Notes under the pieces: generated by a model
Database searches by the model: none
What the model was told of the DNA's origin: nothing
The model's input: the letters and a program-made list of their open reading frames with translations, nothing else
Made by a program: the position numbers and the translations under genes
Assembly (NCBI GenBank): GCA_013298775.1
Contig: JAAFIV010000016.1
Location: forward strand, 1-64,000
Source: Ignavibacteria bacterium
GTDB lineage: Bacteria > Bacteroidota > Ignavibacteria > Kapaibacteriales > UBA4661
DNA length: 64,000 nucleotides
Reading direction: 5' to 3'
Shown: piece after piece, positions 2,725 to 19,082 of the stretch
How positions within the stretch are numbered: the first letter of the stretch is position 1
Layout: every line of letters begins with the position of its first letter

Positions 2725-4233
2725 TTACGGTCTATCCCACCACACACGAGCAAGGAAGATACCATACTCGTTTGCATTCACCCGTCCACGCGCTTCGGCT
2801 TCGTTGGCGGTGTTGAATATCTGCTCACTTTGCGGATATTGTGCGCGGCGAGGTACCAGACCGCCCGTGACATTTCCGGCAGGATTAAGCGTGCGAAGGC
2901 GCGGAAAGCCCGTTCTACGCCATTCTGCATACGGCTCCAAACCATCCAAAAATGTACAAATCCACTTTTGCAAAATGATTTGTTCCAACGCATTTGATTC
3001 ATTGTAAGCAATACGCGGCTGCGCAATATATCGAACAATCGAACTATCCGCAGGAATTGGCGGGTTGTTTGGGCAGATGGAATATTGCGTCATACCTGCA
3101 CGAATTCCTGCTTCGTAGTGTTCGCGGGCTGTGCGAGGTGTTGTCCAACCGCGCCATTTTGCTTCAGCCATGAGCAATTCTACTTCTGCGTAGGTAATAA
3201 AAATCGTTGGAGAATCACGGTTTGGCGAAGCAAGATGCGGACCTACTCGTGCAAGCGTATTCGAGTTCAATGCCTGACGCTGTGCGGACGTAATGCCATT
3301 CGGCAGACCACGATTTGGGCGTGGAGCTTCGTTGATAATGCGCAAACGAGGGTCATTGGTGCTGTCCAGCGTACTAACGAATAATTCACTGAGGCGATAA
3401 TCGTCGAACTGATTGAGCGTTTGCCACGTATTTGATTGCTGAATCCGTGCGCCGTTTGCTTGGTCAATCCACGCCATATCAGCGTTTGACTGCATCACAC
3501 CTGCGGCGATTGCTTCTTCTGCTTCGCGTTTTGCTGTTGCGGGGTCCACTTTTGATAGACGCATTGCAAGGCGCAAACGCAAGGAATTACCGAATCTGCG
3601 CCAGCGCGTGAGGTCGCCGCGATATACGCCGTCATTAATGGTCAATGTGCGTTTTGTATTGTCAAAAGCCGCAACTGCCTCTTTTAATTCCTTCAACATA
3701 TCGCGGTAAATTGCCTCTTGCGTATCATATTTCGGAGTGAAATTGCGGTCGTAGAAGCCGCGTCCTGCCTCGAAGTACGGCACATCGCCAAACAAGTCGG
3801 TAATGCGGTGAAATACGAATACTTTCCAAATACGCGCAGCCGAAAGAATGTTTACATCGTTCGGATTTTTCTTTGCGCGTTCTACAATATCCGTTGCAAA
3901 CTTCACCACGCCCGGCTGACCAATTACGCCGCGTCCAGCGTACCACCACTCCCACTGAGCGTTTGGCATGCCGCGATACATTTCTGGACCAAACTCAGCT
4001 GTTTTTGGAGAAAGGTGCTGCACCACGCATGAAATGGCGGTGTAGTTATAGGTTTGCTGCTCGAAGTTGTCCCCCGCCGTGCGGAGTTGCATATTGGAAA
4101 ACATGAGCAAAGGGTCAATATCCGTTACCTGCGTGGGATTGGTGTTTAATTGCTCAAAGCCCGCCGTGCAGCTTGTTAGCCACAGTCCAAGTGCGGCAAA
4201 GAGCGCGAGACTACTGCTTTTTAAGGTTTTCAT
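2725..4233 (-). CDS. SusD/RagB-family nutrient-binding outer-membrane lipoprotein
   Basis: SusD-type lipoproteins sit on the cell surface, capture oligosaccharides or peptides and lid the SusC transporter. This one has 502 residues with a signal peptide and clear lipobox LTSC (lipid Cys22), followed by the NTNP motif usual after the tether of the SusD_2-like branch. Helical TPR-like segments typical of the fold follow, and the tail ends in NEYGIFLARVWWDRP. It is the second gene of a susC-susD pair. The 141-base gap to susC contains a REPIN, unusual for a pair normally only a few bases apart. The downstream hairpin at 2658-2706 likely ends the transcript. The substrate cannot be read from the sequence; the neighbours suggest a glycan. 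Confidence 0.93.
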   Translation of the reverse strand: MKTLKSSSLALFAALGLWLTSCTAGFEQLNTNPTQVTDIDPLLMFSNMQLRTAGDNFEQQTYNYTAISCVVQHLSPKTAEFGPEMYRGMPNAQWEWWYAGRGVIGQPGVVKFATDIVERAKKNPNDVNILSAARIWKVFVFHRITDLFGDVPYFEAGRGFYDRNFTPKYDTQEAIYRDMLKELKEAVAAFDNTKRTLTINDGVYRGDLTRWRRFGNSLRLRLAMRLSKVDPATAKREAEEAIAAGVMQSNADMAWIDQANGARIQQSNTWQTLNQFDDYRLSELFVSTLDSTNDPRLRIINEAPRPNRGLPNGITSAQRQALNSNTLARVGPHLASPNRDSPTIFITYAEVELLMAEAKWRGWTTPRTAREHYEAGIRAGMTQYSICPNNPPIPADSSIVRYIAQPRIAYNESNALEQIILQKWICTFLDGLEPYAEWRRTGFPRLRTLNPAGNVTGGLVPRRAQYPQSEQIFNTANEAEARGRVNANEYGIFLARVWWDRP

Positions 4234-4275: not shown

Positions 4276-4364
4276 GTGAGGGTCTCATTTCTTAATGAGG
4301 CTCTCACTTTCTTTCTGGTTAGCATTGCCGAAGTGAGACCCTCAATAAGAATTGAGAGCCTCAC
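4276..4364. repeat. REPIN-like repeat between susC and susD, copy 2
   Basis: The element has two 32-base hairpin arms. The left arm (4276-4307) carries a matched pair of changes against the common form: position 13 is t instead of a, and position 20 is a instead of t. Positions 13 and 20 pair with each other in the stem, so the hairpin is preserved. The right arm ends tgagagcctcac at 4364. It sits inside the presumed susC-susD transcript. Confidence 0.87.
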
Positions 4365-4374
4365 GCAGAGCCGC

Positions 4375-7300
4375 TTAGAACTTCAGCGTAAGGTTTACGC
4401 CGTAGCTGCGTGTGCTTGGAAGCGAGTTGTATTCCAAACCTTGCGCGTTGCCGTTGCTGTAATTCGATTCCGGGTCCACGTTAGGAATGTTGGAAAACAA
4501 AATCGCAGCATTGCGCATAACGAAGGAAATACGCGCTCCGGTAAGAACATTGCTGAGGAACGAATCGCGCAGCATATCACTTGTAAAGGTGTAACCAACC
4601 GTGATTTCGCGGAGCTTCACAAAACTTGCATCATACATGAAGTTCTCCGTAATGCCGCCGTAGCTCGACCAAAAGTCTTGCACGTAGGCGCGGCGCGTAT
4701 TCGGCACATACATTGGTGCAGCAGTGGTTCCGGCATTCATCACGCCAACAGCGAGAATACTATCAGGGCGTGCGCCTTCGCGTCCTACAAGTGTGCCTTT
4801 ATTCTGCCCGGTGATGTACGAATTTGCATTGGTGAGCGAGAATATTTTGCCGCCAACGCGGAAATCCACCAGTGCGCTTACCGTAAAACCAAAAATGTTG
4901 AACGAATTCGACCAGCCGCCGATAGCGTCTGGAACGGCATTTCCCAAGTCTCTTGCAACGGGGTCACGCACGGGCAAACCTGTACGAGCATCATACACAA
5001 GCGGAAATCCAGGTTGTGAAGAATCACGTAACTGCGCCACGCCACGAATAACGCCATACGCCTGACCTTCCACTGCAAGCACCGTCGCGCCTGAGCGAGC
5101 ATCGCCCAGCGTGAGATTGCGCAAGCCCGGATAGAGTTCCGCAACTTTATTCCAGTTACGAGCGATATTGAACGAGGTTTCCCACGTAAATTCAGGTGTT
5201 TTCACAGGTGTTGCGGTGATAAGCAGCTCCACGCCTTCATTCACAATGCGTCCGGCGTTGATGAGTGCGCCAGTAAAGCCGCTTGTTGGCGTAATCGAAA
5301 TCGGAATAATCTGATTGCGAACATCTTGCTGATAGTATGTGAAGTCAATACCGAAGCGACCTTCAAAGAATTTCAAATCCAAACCTGCTTCAATGTTGTT
5401 GGAGATTGTTGGTTTTAATGCACCATTTGGAATGTTGAATTGCGGAGCTTGTGCCAAAATCATGTTGGTATTGCGTCCAGCTGTGTACGGAAGCGCGGCG
5501 TAGGCATAGAGAAGTTGCAACTGATAGGGGTCGGTGTCGCCGCCCACTTGCGCCCACGAAGCGCGTATTTTCCCAAGCGGAATATCTTTTTGCAAACCAA
5601 ATGCTTCCGTGAAATTGAATGTTGCATTGACGGACGGATAGAAATACGAATTGTTTGCGGCGGGAAGCGTTGAAGACCAGTCGTTACGCGCTGTTGCTTC
5701 CAAGAACAAGAAATCCTTGTACGCAAGCGTTGCCGAGCCGTAGAAGGAGTTTATCATTTTTTGGCTAAGAGCATAGCCCGGTTCACGAACAACGGTGTTC
5801 GTTACAGCAAAAAAGTCGCGGCTGATAAATTGCGAACCCAAAATCTGGAACTGCTCGTTTTTGCGGAACATCGTGTTTCCGCCACCATTGATTGTGAGGC
5901 GAAAGTCTTCCGACAAGGCTTGGTCGAAGGTTACGAGGAAATCTGCGTTGATTTCTTCTTGAAAAATGTTGCGTTCCAAAATATCGCCGTCGGGCTTGTT
6001 CAATGTGCCTTGCGGGTCAATTTGCGCTTGGCGGAAGTTGTAGGCATCTCGTCCGGCACGAACCATCACCGAAAGCGGCTCTGCTACTTGATAGCGAAGT
6101 GAGGCATTCGCAATTAAGCGGTCGCGGAAGGTAGGGTTGCGATTTTCAAACACTGACCAAAAAGGATTTGGGCTGAAATTATCGCGCGTTTGCCAACGGC
6201 GTTGAATATCAAGATTGCTGGTTGGCGTTGGATTGCGATAGTCACGAAGCAAGTTAATATCAAGGCTGCGAGGAATGCTATTCAGTGAGCGTGCCGGATT
6301 ATCAGCAGCATCGGACAAGGAAGGACGATTTGGTGCAGTTTCGCGGATGTAGTTTGCTTTCACATCAGCCGTGATGCGGTCTCCAAGCGTTGCTTGACCA
6401 CGAGCCGTCAGCGTAAGACGGTTTAATGCGGTGTTTGGGACAATGCCGATATTATCCATGTTCGATGCAGAAAAGCGAAAATTCGCTGTCTGGCTGCCGC
6501 CTGTAAAGGCAATGGTATTCGTAATGGTACGACCAGTTTGGTAGAAATCGCGGATGTTATTCGGCTGTGCAACGTAAGGACGCATCACTCCGTCGAAGAA
6601 CATTTGCTGTGAACCGTCAAGACGCGCACCCCATGAATTTGTTCCCAGAAGCAGCACACCTGCTTGTGTTGCAGGAACTACGCCTCGGTCGCCGTGTCCG
6701 TATTCATTTTGGAAATCGGGCAAAACAAGTGGCGTATCGAAGGTGAGATTGCCATTGTATTCCACGCCAATTCCCTCGCGAGCAATACCTTTTTTTGTGG
6801 TAATCACAATCACACCGTTTTGAGCGCGAGTGCCGTACAGAGCAGCAGCAGCGGCACCTTTGAGAACGCTGATTGTTTCAATATCATCAGGATTGATGCT
6901 TTGAATACCATCGCCGAAGTCCGTACCACCAAACTGTCCTGCTTGGTTGGGCGATTCGTTGTCAATCGGAATACCGTCCACCACGTAAAGCGGTTGGTTA
7001 TTTCCTGTCAGTTGCTTTTCACCACGAATAACCACGCGGCTCGAACCACCAACGCCCGTCTGACCAATGTTTACGCGCACTCCGGCAACTTTACCAACAA
7101 GAGCATTTGCGACGTTCAATTCACGTGCTTGTGTAAGAGATTCACCCGAAACGGTAGAAATGGCGTAACCAAGCGACTTGCGCTCGCGCTCAATACCAAT
7201 CGCCGTAACAACGACTTCATCCATCAAGACATCGTCTAATGCCAGAGAAAGAGCAACTACGCCACTTTCCGGCACTTTGGTTTCTGCTTTTTTGTACCCA

Positions 7301-7554
7301 ACAAGGCTTGCAACGAGTGTTTGTCCTGTTTGTGCGGAAATGGTGAAATTGCCCTCACGGTCGGAAATTGCACCGCGCAACGACCCTTTGGCAATGACTT
7401 TTACGCCAGCAAGCGGCTTTCCACTGTCTTTTGTGGTGATTTTTCCCGTAACAGAACGGGCTTGAGCAAATACCTCTCCGCTTGCGAAGAAGAGCATGGC
7501 CAAAAGAGCCACACACCGCATAAACAGAGAGATACGAGGTAGAACATTATTCAT
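4375..7554 (-). CDS. SusC/RagA-family TonB-dependent outer-membrane transporter
   Basis: This is the TonB-driven outer-membrane channel that imports the ligand held by SusD. The 1059-residue protein has a signal peptide ending in VFAQ, and a carboxypeptidase-regulatory-like domain (about 35-115: VTGKITTKDSGKPLAGVKV). A DEVVVTA box near 112 precedes the plug domain (QPLYVVDGIPIDNE and ISVLKGAAAAALYG are SusC hallmarks). A long beta-barrel ends in aromatic LTLKF. The length is normal for the family. Its start lies only 311 bases from the RAYT stop codon, and that gap is almost all REPIN sequence, so any promoter must lie within or beside those repeats. Together with susD it forms the core of a polysaccharide-utilisation-type locus. 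Confidence 0.95.
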   Translation of the reverse strand: MNNVLPRISLFMRCVALLAMLFFASGEVFAQARSVTGKITTKDSGKPLAGVKVIAKGSLRGAISDREGNFTISAQTGQTLVASLVGYKKAETKVPESGVVALSLALDDVLMDEVVVTAIGIERERKSLGYAISTVSGESLTQARELNVANALVGKVAGVRVNIGQTGVGGSSRVVIRGEKQLTGNNQPLYVVDGIPIDNESPNQAGQFGGTDFGDGIQSINPDDIETISVLKGAAAAALYGTRAQNGVIVITTKKGIAREGIGVEYNGNLTFDTPLVLPDFQNEYGHGDRGVVPATQAGVLLLGTNSWGARLDGSQQMFFDGVMRPYVAQPNNIRDFYQTGRTITNTIAFTGGSQTANFRFSASNMDNIGIVPNTALNRLTLTARGQATLGDRITADVKANYIRETAPNRPSLSDAADNPARSLNSIPRSLDINLLRDYRNPTPTSNLDIQRRWQTRDNFSPNPFWSVFENRNPTFRDRLIANASLRYQVAEPLSVMVRAGRDAYNFRQAQIDPQGTLNKPDGDILERNIFQEEINADFLVTFDQALSEDFRLTINGGGNTMFRKNEQFQILGSQFISRDFFAVTNTVVREPGYALSQKMINSFYGSATLAYKDFLFLEATARNDWSSTLPAANNSYFYPSVNATFNFTEAFGLQKDIPLGKIRASWAQVGGDTDPYQLQLLYAYAALPYTAGRNTNMILAQAPQFNIPNGALKPTISNNIEAGLDLKFFEGRFGIDFTYYQQDVRNQIIPISITPTSGFTGALINAGRIVNEGVELLITATPVKTPEFTWETSFNIARNWNKVAELYPGLRNLTLGDARSGATVLAVEGQAYGVIRGVAQLRDSSQPGFPLVYDARTGLPVRDPVARDLGNAVPDAIGGWSNSFNIFGFTVSALVDFRVGGKIFSLTNANSYITGQNKGTLVGREGARPDSILAVGVMNAGTTAAPMYVPNTRRAYVQDFWSSYGGITENFMYDASFVKLREITVGYTFTSDMLRDSFLSNVLTGARISFVMRNAAILFSNIPNVDPESNYSNGNAQGLEYNSLPSTRSYGVNLTLKF

Positions 7555-7572: not shown

Positions 7573-7704
7573 TGTGAAAGTATTTGTGTGAGGGTCTCAA
7601 TTCTTATTGAGGCTCTCACTTCTTTGGTAACTGCGTGGTGTGAAAGTATTTGTGTGAGGGTCTCAATTCTTATTGAGGCTCTCACTTCTTTGGTAACTGC
7701 GTGG
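7573..7704. repeat. 66-bp tandem duplication carrying a REPIN arm
   Basis: The unit starting tgtgaaagtatttgtgtgag at 7573 is repeated exactly from 7639 to 7704. It contains the left REPIN hairpin arm (7588-7619, again at 7654-7685) plus the linker ttctttggtaactgcgtgg. The first copy therefore has one orphan arm and the second is part of a complete REPIN. It lies directly upstream of susC. Confidence 0.92.
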
Positions 7705-7744
7705 TGGTAGAAGTGAGACCCTCACTAGGAAGTGAGAGCCTCAC
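7654..7744. repeat. REPIN-like repeat upstream of susC, copy 3b
   Basis: A 91-base element: left hairpin arm, 27-base spacer containing gtaactgcgtggtggtag, and a right arm of the variant form gtgagaccctcac-taggaa-gtgagagcctcac. It is identical over its full length to the next copy (7764-7854), 110 bases away, so the duplication is recent. Confidence 0.9.
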
Positions 7745-7763
7745 AGGAAATTCAAGCTATGAT

Positions 7764-7854
7764 GTGAGGGTCTCAATTCTTATTGAGGCTCTCACTTCTT
7801 TGGTAACTGCGTGGTGGTAGAAGTGAGACCCTCACTAGGAAGTGAGAGCCTCAC
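7764..7854. repeat. REPIN-like repeat between RAYT and susC, copy 3c
   Basis: Identical in all 91 positions to 7654-7744. It ends 11 bases before the RAYT stop codon. The whole 311-base gap between RAYT and susC is repeat sequence apart from short linkers, and no other gene is visible in it. Confidence 0.9.
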
Positions 7855-7865
7855 GGGAGAAGTAA

Positions 7866-8408
7866 TTACCGCCAATATTTTTCTGGCTGGTGATGTACTT
7901 GTTCAGAGAAATGGCGAAATTCCTCAACCGTTGGAAAGTATGCTTGCACAAGGTCTTTTTGGGGCAACGTACCATTACGCAATCCAACATAATCTTGATA
8001 GCTGGAGAACTTCCATTCATGCGGCTTTACGACAAGTTTTGCCCGCACTGGATTATCATGAATATATGCGATGACGGCTATAAGGTATCGTTCATCATCA
8101 ATCAAAAGAGCTTTGGTATGCTGTTGAAACAAGCTCCCGCTCCGCTCAACAGCCCTGTTCAATGCTCGTGTATAGGATGATAATAATTTCCCGAACATCA
8201 TCCCCACGTTATCACATTTCTCTTTCCCCCGAATCAAAAAATGAAAATGCGTTGGCATGAGACAATATGCGATTGTATCAACATAGTCATCCAACATTGC
8301 GCGATATTTTTTTAAGAAAAAGCCATAGTTTTCTTCGGTGCGAAATACCGTTTCTTGTGCGTTGGAGCGGTTAAAAACGTGATAATATGAACCATTAACG
8401 ATGTTCAT
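7866..8408 (-). CDS. REP-associated tyrosine transposase (RAYT, IS200/IS605-like Y1 family)
   Basis: RAYTs are single-copy, host-kept relatives of IS200/IS605 transposases that bind and nick REP hairpins and are thought to spread them. The 180-residue protein starts SYYHVFNRSN near residue 7. It has the HUH metal site THFHFLI (H54-F-H56), a candidate catalytic tyrosine Y79 in SSYTRALNR, and the family signature YIHDNPVRAKLV followed by KFSSYQDY (115-140). I use the ATG at 8408. The frame stays open 36 bases further to a TTG, but those codons run into a REPIN, so they are probably not translated. REPINs flank the gene closely on both sides (7588-7854 and 8432-8528), the arrangement expected if this enzyme acts on that repeat family. 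Confidence 0.9.
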   Translation of the reverse strand: MNIVNGSYYHVFNRSNAQETVFRTEENYGFFLKKYRAMLDDYVDTIAYCLMPTHFHFLIRGKEKCDNVGMMFGKLLSSYTRALNRAVERSGSLFQQHTKALLIDDERYLIAVIAYIHDNPVRAKLVVKPHEWKFSSYQDYVGLRNGTLPQKDLVQAYFPTVEEFRHFSEQVHHQPEKYWR

Positions 8409-8431
8409 TGATTTTTCGTCTTCGATGTCTT

Positions 8432-8528
8432 GTGAGGCTCTCAATTCTTATTGAGGGTCTCACTTTGGTTATTGCTTTGGTTATTGAGTGGTAGAAGTGA
8501 GACCCTCACTAGGAAGTGAGAGCCTCAC
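8432..8528. repeat. REPIN-like repeat upstream of RAYT, copy 4
   Basis: Left arm 8432-8463, a longer spacer with the partial direct repeat ttggttattg, and a right arm ending tgagagcctcac at 8528. It starts 23 bases upstream of the RAYT start codon and fills the gap to the preceding hydrolase gene on the same strand. Confidence 0.87.
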
Positions 8529-8586
8529 AAGAGGTTACGGGCGTAATGGTAAAAGTGAGAGCCTCACAAGAGGTTACGGGCGTAAT
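8516..8586. repeat. Direct duplication joining a REPIN half-arm to a gene end
   Basis: A 32-base sequence (gtgagagcctcacaagagg followed by ttacgggcgtaat) occurs at 8516-8547 and again at 8555-8586, a period of 39 bases. The second copy contains the stop codon and last codons of the GHL10 gene, so the gene's 3' end has been copied together with half a REPIN arm. Confidence 0.88.
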
Positions 8587-9812
8587 AAACTATCCCTTGG
8601 AAAGGCAGCATTCAAGCGGTACAAACCCTGACGAAGTGCGCGGGCATTTTCAAAATTATTTGGCGTGAGAGCCTCGTAAAAGAACGTAACTGAGCCTATC
8701 ATCCCCGCCGTGCGGTTCGCGGTTATCCAATCCGACATAAGCTGCGATGTCGCAATAAAGGGGTCAGCGCGACCTAAAATCCCCGGAGCTATCTTACGAC
8801 GCGCATTTGTGGGCATTTGCGATTGTAACTGCGTCAGCAATCCCTGATACGCTGGCACATCGCGGCGATACAACTGCGTACTCAGCAAATCCACCAATCC
8901 CCGCTGCATCCACGTTGGCGAATCCTGCAAATACTCTACATTTCCAAACGGAAACGGACTTGGCGACATTGCAAAGACGAGATTATTTTTCCGTGCTTTT
9001 ACACGCTCGCGCAAGCGTTGAAGCCAATTTGTGAGTTGGTCGGCTCGCCATTTTACCCAATCTGCATCTTTGAAATCCTGCGGCGCAGTGCGCCCAGTCT
9101 CGCGTTGATAGCGTGCTGTTGTTGCTGCGTCGTAGCCACCTTCGCTCGGCATTGCGGGCATTCGATCATCTCCTTGAATGCCGTCAATGTCGTAATTATT
9201 GACCACTTCCATTACCAAATCGCTCATGAAATTTTGAACGTTGGTATCAAGCGCGTTCATCCAATAAAAACCATTTTTAACGACCACTTGCCCGTCTCGC
9301 CCTATTGATGCCCATTGTGGGTATTTGGTAAGAATTGCCCCAGGCGGCGTACCTAATCCGCTATTGAACGACGAAAAGCCGTATTCAAACCACGGAATTA
9401 CCGTCAAACCCTGCAGTCGTGCCTCTTCGATGGTTTCACGAAGAACATCCCGCGAACCAAATTGCGCACCAATCGGTAAGGTGAAGTCGCGCTGCATCCG
9501 CTCAGACCGCCACAAGGTATAGCCACGCGCCCACACGACGGGAAAGACGGCATTGAAGCCATTTTCTTTTAATGTTCGCATTGCAAGGGCAATATTTTCA
9601 CGGGAATCAAATACGGTGCTGCCCGCCAACGTCAGCCACACCCCGCGTACTTCGGGCGTTGCGACACTTGGTGTAACAGTGCGGTTTGTATCGGGTGGCT
9701 TTGTAATTACTTGAGGACCAGAATTCTGCGGTGTGCAAGCACAAACGGCAAGAAAAAGAAACGCGCATGCAAGAAGCAATGCGGAAAAAGTATTCCCCAA
9801 AAAGCGGTACAT
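8574..9812 (-). CDS. GHL10-type (DUF187/YngK-like) family 10 glycosyl hydrolase-like lipoprotein
   Basis: The protein belongs to the glycosyl-hydrolase-like 10 group, (beta/alpha)8 barrels on the cell envelope whose substrates are mostly unsettled. From the ATG at 9812 it has 412 residues. The first 26 residues make a signal with lipobox VCAC (lipid Cys26), then a Pro/Thr-rich linker, then the family opening VRGVWLTLAG (about 55-64). VIPWFEYGF and the acidic segment DIDGIQGDDRMPAMPSE follow, with MSPSPFPFG and STQLYRRDV as later barrel strands. An in-frame GTG 48 bases further upstream would spoil the signal peptide. A paralogue lies at 15868-17193. It is first in a minus-strand run continuing through RAYT to susC and susD. 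Confidence 0.85.
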   Translation of the reverse strand: MYRFLGNTFSALLLACAFLFLAVCACTPQNSGPQVITKPPDTNRTVTPSVATPEVRGVWLTLAGSTVFDSRENIALAMRTLKENGFNAVFPVVWARGYTLWRSERMQRDFTLPIGAQFGSRDVLRETIEEARLQGLTVIPWFEYGFSSFNSGLGTPPGAILTKYPQWASIGRDGQVVVKNGFYWMNALDTNVQNFMSDLVMEVVNNYDIDGIQGDDRMPAMPSEGGYDAATTARYQRETGRTAPQDFKDADWVKWRADQLTNWLQRLRERVKARKNNLVFAMSPSPFPFGNVEYLQDSPTWMQRGLVDLLSTQLYRRDVPAYQGLLTQLQSQMPTNARRKIAPGILGRADPFIATSQLMSDWITANRTAGMIGSVTFFYEALTPNNFENARALRQGLYRLNAAFPRDSLLRP

Positions 9813-10023
9813 ACGGAAAGCAATTAAATTTGAGTAGAAATACACGAGAACTACACACACATTTACACTGAATCCACACTGAAACAGTCGAATATACGAA
9901 CACTTCCAATGAAGAGCAATGTTTGTTTACAGAAAAATGCACTTTTTCGCCCCTGAATACATCTTTTTTTGTCGTATTTTAGGGAAAACTCACAAAACTT
10001 TTTGAATATTAGCAGCTAAAATC

Positions 10024-18931: not shown

Positions 18932-19082
18932 ATGAGACCCTCAATAAAAAAATGAGAGCCTCACAGGAGAGAGCGAAACTACGTGAGGGTCTCAATTCTT
19001 ATTGAGGCTCTCACTGCGATATTGCTTTGTATTGCGCGTTGTTCCTGAAAGTGAGACCCTCAATAAGAATTGAGAGCCTCAC
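18932..19082. repeat. REPIN-like repeat plus a single degenerate arm, copies 5a/5b
   Basis: The complete element at 18983-19082 has a left arm starting gtgagggtctcaat and a right arm ending tgagagcctcac, separated by a 36-base spacer. A lone imperfect arm (18932-18964, with an A-rich loop) precedes it. Both lie between the symporter and the ROK kinase genes on the same strand. This is the most distant copy of the family from the RAYT gene in the window; I see none from 19.1 to 64 kb. Confidence 0.87.

Follow-up and report, generated by a model that had tools for sequence, protein, structure and literature searches.

Does the gene of a REP-associated tyrosine transposase (RAYT), which in an Ignavibacteria bacterium lies between hairpin repeats of a glycan-uptake locus, mark an undescribed element family, as the first-pass annotation of this DNA proposed, or a known type of association between a host-resident RAYT and its repeats? 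The window, i.e., the whole stretch of 64,000 nucleotides that was analysed, is the start of contig C8 in a genome of 5.19 Mb and 95 contigs.

The RAYT and its flanking repeats

The RAYT is surrounded by susC, susD and a GHL10-like gene, all on one strand, which makes glycan-uptake locus a fair label. The features of the window are as follows.

2574-2657, REPIN; its spacer has ggtaactgcgtggt in common with REPINs 1 and 2
2725-4233, susD, same strand as RAYT, susC and GHL10-like gene
4276-4364, REPIN between susD and susC
4375-7554, susC, same strand as RAYT and susD
7588-7619 (+), lone arm; it forms one half of a tandem duplication (66 nt) of REPIN 1's left portion
7654-7744, REPIN 1: arm 7654-7685 (+), 27-nt spacer, arm 7713-7744 (-)
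7764-7854, REPIN 2: arm 7764-7795 (+), arm 7823-7854 (-)
7866-8408 (-), RAYT (TnpAREP-like HUH-Y1 protein), 180 aa from ATG 8408
8432-8528, REPIN 3, upstream of the RAYT start: arm 8432-8463 (+), 33-nt spacer, arm 8497-8528 (-)
8555-8587 (-), half-arm tandem copy with a 39-nt period: right half of the 8497-8528 arm plus flank
8574-9860, GHL10 glycosyl hydrolase-like gene, same strand as RAYT, susC and susD
18983-19082, REPIN

In total, the RAYT flanks hold three full arm pairs and one lone arm. The earlier account, three paired repeats or arms on one side and one on the other, held up: one side carries two complete pairs together with a duplicated arm, the opposite side a single complete pair. 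REPINs 1 and 2 are near-identical, spacer included, and their identity (99%) ends 1 nt beyond the left arm and 4 nt beyond the right arm. The arm nearest susC lies upstream of it, with its end 34 nt from the start codon; the proposed link to susC expression is one of position only.

The RAYT reading frame is intact and open from 7866 to 8444 on the reverse strand, up to a TTG at 8444. Its start most likely is the ATG at 8408, because in the AlphaFold model (pLDDT 89) the long frame begins with ten disordered residues. A fold search of the PDB with this model gave as top match 4er8 (E 2e-8, TM 0.61/0.70, 16% identity), the E. coli REP-associated tyrosine transposase with bound REP hairpin, followed by IS608, ISDra2 and other IS200-type transposases. 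The fold search settled the identity of the protein; a PDB sequence search with one protein returned 4er8 as sole match at E 0.55. Pfam Y1_Tnp matched at 2.5e-5 and NCBIfam NF047646 (REP_Tyr_transpos) at E 3e-18 with 66 bits, below the curated cut-off of 80 bits, which belongs to the model and is not a biological defining feature. RAYTs of this clade from the same genus likewise fall under this cut-off.

The protein carries the motifs T-HFH, LFQQHTKA and YIHDNP. Counted from the ATG, HFH occupies residues 54-56, which bears out the earlier description of a complete RAYT with its HUH motif at this place. Y-x3-NP is the class 2 tyrosine signature (TnpAREP), Y-x3-Q that of class 1 (PMC6006769). 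Going by this family signature, the catalytic tyrosine is the one in YIHDNP, Tyr115 from the ATG or Tyr127 of the long frame. Tyr79, previously named as the candidate, is invariant in the alignment too, yet it lies outside the Y-x3-NP motif, and that assignment was wrong. With its HUH and Y-x3-NP motifs and its match to the TnpAREP fold, the RAYT belongs to the class 2 Y1 proteins. The genome holds this one intact copy, with repeats on both sides, and one broken paralogue of 63% identity; a search of a plasmid collection for RAYT homologues returned distant ones only.

Arm structure and genomic distribution of the repeat

The arm is 32 nt long, GTGAGGSTCTCAN-TTCNTA-NTGAGGSTCTCAC, with a 13-bp stem (14 bp in folded examples) and a 6-nt loop. 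The pairing with such long arms had seemed unfamiliar on first reading; with REPs of 20-40 nt and an E. coli y-REP of 35 nt, arms of this length are ordinary (PMC3733652, PMC8266576). Folded as single-stranded DNA, the arm reaches z = -7.9 and the arm pair z = -8.5. Both arm strands fold well, though differently: one is fully paired with two G.T pairs, and in the other these positions read as two A.C mismatches within a 3x3 internal loop. An Rfam search of the repeats gave sub-threshold matches alone, mostly to hairpin-type microRNA families, which are meaningless.

Across 44 distinct arms, the covariation score was 0.249, compared with 0.088 for shuffled arms, none of 500 of which scored as high, and with no more than 0.030 for a slid pairing. 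Compensatory changes on both sides occurred at pairs 2/31, 7/26, 11/22, 12/21 and 13/20, whereas pairs 6/27 (G.T) and 8/25 (T.G) almost never varied. As the first arm pattern had required the latter two within its two mismatches, the search was repeated with positions 6-8 and 25-27 free, and both wobble pairs were kept in 120 of 124 arms. Such fixed wobble pairs next to covarying neighbours would suggest recognition by a protein that reads the strand, rather than folding alone.

Canonical REPs bear GT[AG]G at the 5' foot of the hairpin (PMC3733652, PMC6006769). This unpaired 5' GT[AG]G is absent from the foot of the arms, and the outer flank is only weakly biased. The sole conserved flank is a TTY triplet on the spacer side (107/112, 89/112 and 101/112 for the three positions), which reads 5'-RAA on the other strand. 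If RAA were the tag, the arms would form tail-tail dimers, and for these a published rule of thumb gives variable spacers (PMC3733652). The weak bias of the outer flanks genome-wide consists of A at -14 (53/104), T at -1 (49/104) and T/C at -4/-5, and perhaps reflects a target preference.

The first-pass annotation had asked for a search for further copies, whose absence would have spoken against it. The arm was found at 88 genome sites with up to three mismatches, and a wider pattern gave 179 matches, some of them overlapping; reversed-pattern controls gave 0 in both cases. Arms are paired in inverted orientation: among adjacent strict arms less than 200 nt apart, 32 were (+,-), compared with 2 (-,+), 2 (+,+) and 1 (-,-). 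A partner motif lay within 120 nt on the spacer side of 89 of the 112 arms, on the outer side of 17/112, and beside 4/112 random control stretches. Intergenic placement was seen for 62 of 75 elements and for 12.6% of random stretches; these figures come from stretches chosen around arms and a simple ORF caller, so the densities are not genome-wide estimates. Several of the 13 ORF-overlapping elements touch just an ORF end, and a GTG within the arm can pass for a start codon. With inverted hairpin pairs as the unit, high copy number and intergenic position, the repeat has the features of a REPIN.

REPIN spacers measure 15-149 nt and are mostly unrelated to each other in sequence, which would be odd were every copy recent. 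A search for empty REPIN sites by joining of flanks, which covered some 0.93 Mb of this genome together with the retrieved loci of the genus, found none; its matches were to the sites themselves or to copies that share a larger element. Several spacers or flanks are short tandem repeats, e.g., cctttccaatgactt and ggtaaagcgagtt (L110:13161-14046; spacers of L098, L123 and L124), which would fit frequent slippage in the DNA between the arms.

Related RAYTs and the published subclasses

The broken paralogue of the same genome (L034, C1:198417-198971) is interrupted by an in-frame TAA and flanked left and right by matching hairpin pairs. Its distinctive arm, of the GTGCGGGGGTCTCGC type, occurs at two sites genome-wide, both adjoining this gene. 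The earlier wording, which spoke of a single RAYT to which the repeats might be tied, is thus only roughly right, since a further RAYT, though broken, has a repeat family of two copies to itself. In the sister species G004, the orthologous RAYT is flanked on both sides by GCGAGGGTCTCGCT pairs with the same wobble core.

Arm number tracks the presence of this RAYT clade in eight of nine related genomes. G002, G004 and G007 all hold a RAYT of this clade and 12-22 genus-type arms per genome; G001, G003, G006, G008 and G009, where a RAYT of this clade was not found, have 0-1. The exception is G005, with about 12 arm-like matches and no detectable RAYT of this clade, which gene loss or an incomplete assembly could explain. 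The first-pass annotation held that repeats in relatives lacking a RAYT would refute the association; G005 goes some way towards this. Of the NF047646 matches in G005, one is a protein of another type and the other a broken fragment, and arms lie near neither of them.

Some observations on these relatives stand apart. The RAYTs of G002 (L048) and G007 (L053) adjoin hairpins of other sequence, in G002 GCCGTTCTACCGTT-aaga-AACGGTAGGACGGC, while the 12-22 arms of these genomes are of the GYGAGG type; with other hairpins directly beside the gene, the tie between RAYT and arm looks looser there. G005:C139 (L195) and G006:C10 (L194) encode HUH/Y-x3-NP proteins of another type (WQDES.DRIIR, YIxxNP), with arms not nearby and, according to the family search, open frames of about 1000 aa.

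A tree was built from 76 homologues, with a long-branch warning from the program; in it, the window RAYT falls into a supported clade (98/94) with proteins from Balneolota, Hymenobacter, Dyadobacter, Prolixibacteraceae and others. Its sister is a group with the subclass 2.1 signature; the E. coli and 2.6-signature proteins stand apart. Most Bacteroidota relatives in the clade are flanked, often on both sides, by hairpins in excess of shuffles and specific to the family, e.g., AGTCATCCGATGACT-xxx-AGTCATCGGATGACT, and some have hairpins within the gene, between HuH and Y. With 12 shuffles per locus as control, the z values are rough. Several neighbouring 2.1-like loci also lie above shuffles, and hairpin excess alone hence does not separate the clade.

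Subclasses were assigned by the published motif table (PMC6006769), with 2.4 compared by description, and judged by this table the clade fits no published subclass cleanly. It resembles 2.1 (Bertels group 1) in FQ, H-F-H, a HuH-Y spacing near 60 and SS after the core. Subclass 2.1, however, is reported without associated REPs and with a longer C-terminus (median 238 aa; PMC6006769), whereas the clade has clear repeats and the window protein is short at 180 aa, which sets it outside 2.1. Subclass 2.4 (Bertels group 4; Cyanobacteria and Bacteroidetes) is described with WQ, YIxNNP, a variable beta 3-alpha C insertion, and REPs inside the gene as well as 'double foot' repeats (PMC6006769). In likeness to it, clade relatives show variable HuH-alpha C insertions, in-gene hairpins, Y-I-H-N-N-P and long symmetrical hairpins of 'double foot' appearance; by the same description, the differences are FQ instead of WQ and the SS after the core, which 2.4 lacks, and the GT[AG]G foot is missing from the window arms. 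With subclass 2.6 (Bertels group 5) of Bacteroidetes, known for 'atypical secondary structures' (PMC6006769), the RAYT shares the broad phylum, flanking structures without GT[AG]G, and further copies in the genome. In contrast to the FQ and the HuH-Y spacing of about 60 seen here, 2.6 has WQ, a 21-aa insertion before beta 4 and a median HuH-Y distance of 82, and proteins with its signature lie in another part of the tree.

The REPINs and REPtrons of Pseudomonas and E. coli belong to RAYT groups 2 and 3 (PMC3116915, PMC8266576). With these the window locus shares a single-copy RAYT, flanking inverted hairpin pairs, high copy number and intergenic placement. As with the mismatch bulge of the E. 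coli REP, a central irregularity of the stem tells the strands apart; here, however, it consists of two G.T pairs (A.C on the other strand) around a covarying pair, and the GTAG/GTGG tag is missing. The RAYT itself is distant from that of E. coli, as the 16% identity in the fold match indicates. We may tentatively, and with more doubt than conviction, regard the RAYT as a member of an undescribed Bacteroidota-superphylum subclass, sister to 2.1, with lineage-specific symmetrical hairpins, whose recognition within the genus would have shifted from GT[AG]G to a G.T/A.C wobble core and a 5'-RAA guide.

A probable REPtron and the alternatives to it

We read the locus as a REPtron, i.e., a single-copy, host-resident RAYT (TnpAREP) with an adjoining cluster of its own REPINs and a larger intergenic REPIN population, and put the probability of this reading at roughly 85%. 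The gene, its motifs, predicted fold and copy number, the inverted pairing and mostly intergenic placement of the repeats, the stem covariation, the near-invariant wobble pairs and the matching hairpin pairs next to further RAYTs in the genus all were observed. From these sequence features the flanking repeats are very probably the substrate of the RAYT. On the other side of the balance are the search that found no empty site, the missing GT[AG]G, the arm-like copies of G005, the mostly differing spacers and the NF047646 score under its cut-off. Binding by the RAYT, its choice of strand, the role of the guide, cleavage and mobilisation of the repeats we infer as follows. In single-stranded DNA, each arm would fold into a hairpin. 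The RAYT would then bind one arm strand, most likely the one with the two A.C mismatches in its 3x3 internal loop, and might read the 5'-RAA just beyond the foot on the spacer side as guide instead of GT[AG]G. Tyr115 would nick the bound strand, and the arm-spacer-arm unit could be copied or transferred to a new place.

What had been proposed as an undescribed element family is rather a REPtron with a non-GTAG repeat. Its architecture is known; new are the lineage, the missing GT[AG]G, the fixed wobble core and a RAYT clade that is not cleanly placed. Work on RAYTs and REPINs is founded on repeats that carry a GTAG or GTGG tag, with Proteobacteria as the best-studied case, and here a family of about 180 arms without this tag occurs in an Ignavibacteria-type genome. 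Strict covariation in the variable stem, set against two fixed wobble pairs, gives a clear-cut way to ask how a RAYT recognises its strand and selects the site of cleavage. Moreover, related RAYTs with differing repeats in sister species make the co-evolution of enzyme and repeat traceable within one genus.

The repeats could instead be two-way transcription terminators or RNA-stability hairpins under host selection, with the RAYT nearby by coincidence; we rank this second and consider it improbable. In its favour, arms lie between tandem or convergent genes, with just 1/61 between divergent ones compared with 67/457 gaps (P 0.0007), but such avoidance of promoters is also expected of a tolerated mobile repeat. 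Four of the arms in the locus were scored as terminator-like, and towards the spacer the hairpin is followed by a conserved triplet rich in T. This T bias is limited to three bases, however, and T frequency at positions 4-8 past the arm is at background (0.29), which speaks against a terminator tail. Folding alone also leaves unexplained why two G.T pairs never become Watson-Crick while their neighbours covary, and the matching repeats on both sides of the RAYTs of the genus do not fit a chance neighbourhood.

Two further readings give the RAYT another role. If another enzyme mobilised the repeat, or if it were now inert, the RAYT would be a bystander or relic. This we hold to be very improbable: G005 has its arm-like copies with no detectable RAYT of this clade, and some arm copies ride within an unrelated element with terminal inverted repeats, but the RAYT is intact, arm number follows its clade in all but one of the related genomes, and the repeat of the broken second RAYT is confined to its own locus in two copies. 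Least probable of all is an IS200/IS605-type insertion sequence, with the flanking hairpins as its ends and the scattered arms as deleted derivatives. The HUH/Y1 fold and the hairpins on both sides of the RAYT would suit it. We nevertheless rejected it, given the class 2 Y-x3-NP instead of the class 1 Y-x3-Q motif (PMC6006769), the lack of a similar second gene copy in the genome, where the sole paralogue is 63% identical and broken, and whole inverted pairs on each side instead of one left and one right end.

Of the unrelated element, five copies of 204-245 bp were found in the genome, with imperfect terminal inverted repeats of about 18 bp (CTAAYAAGGGTAGGTATT / AATAYCTACCCTTATCAG), and each holds REPIN-type arms in its middle.

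L082:7470-7714, element copy
L085:7744-7983, element copy
L093:10294-10511, element copy
L099:14377-14600, element copy
L120:4751-4954, element copy

Each copy lies within a CCCTYTGGGAG palindromic repeat, and about 11 bp recur on either side of it, imperfectly in some copies. Apparent empty target sites of this element were seen in L105, L103, L114 and L126.
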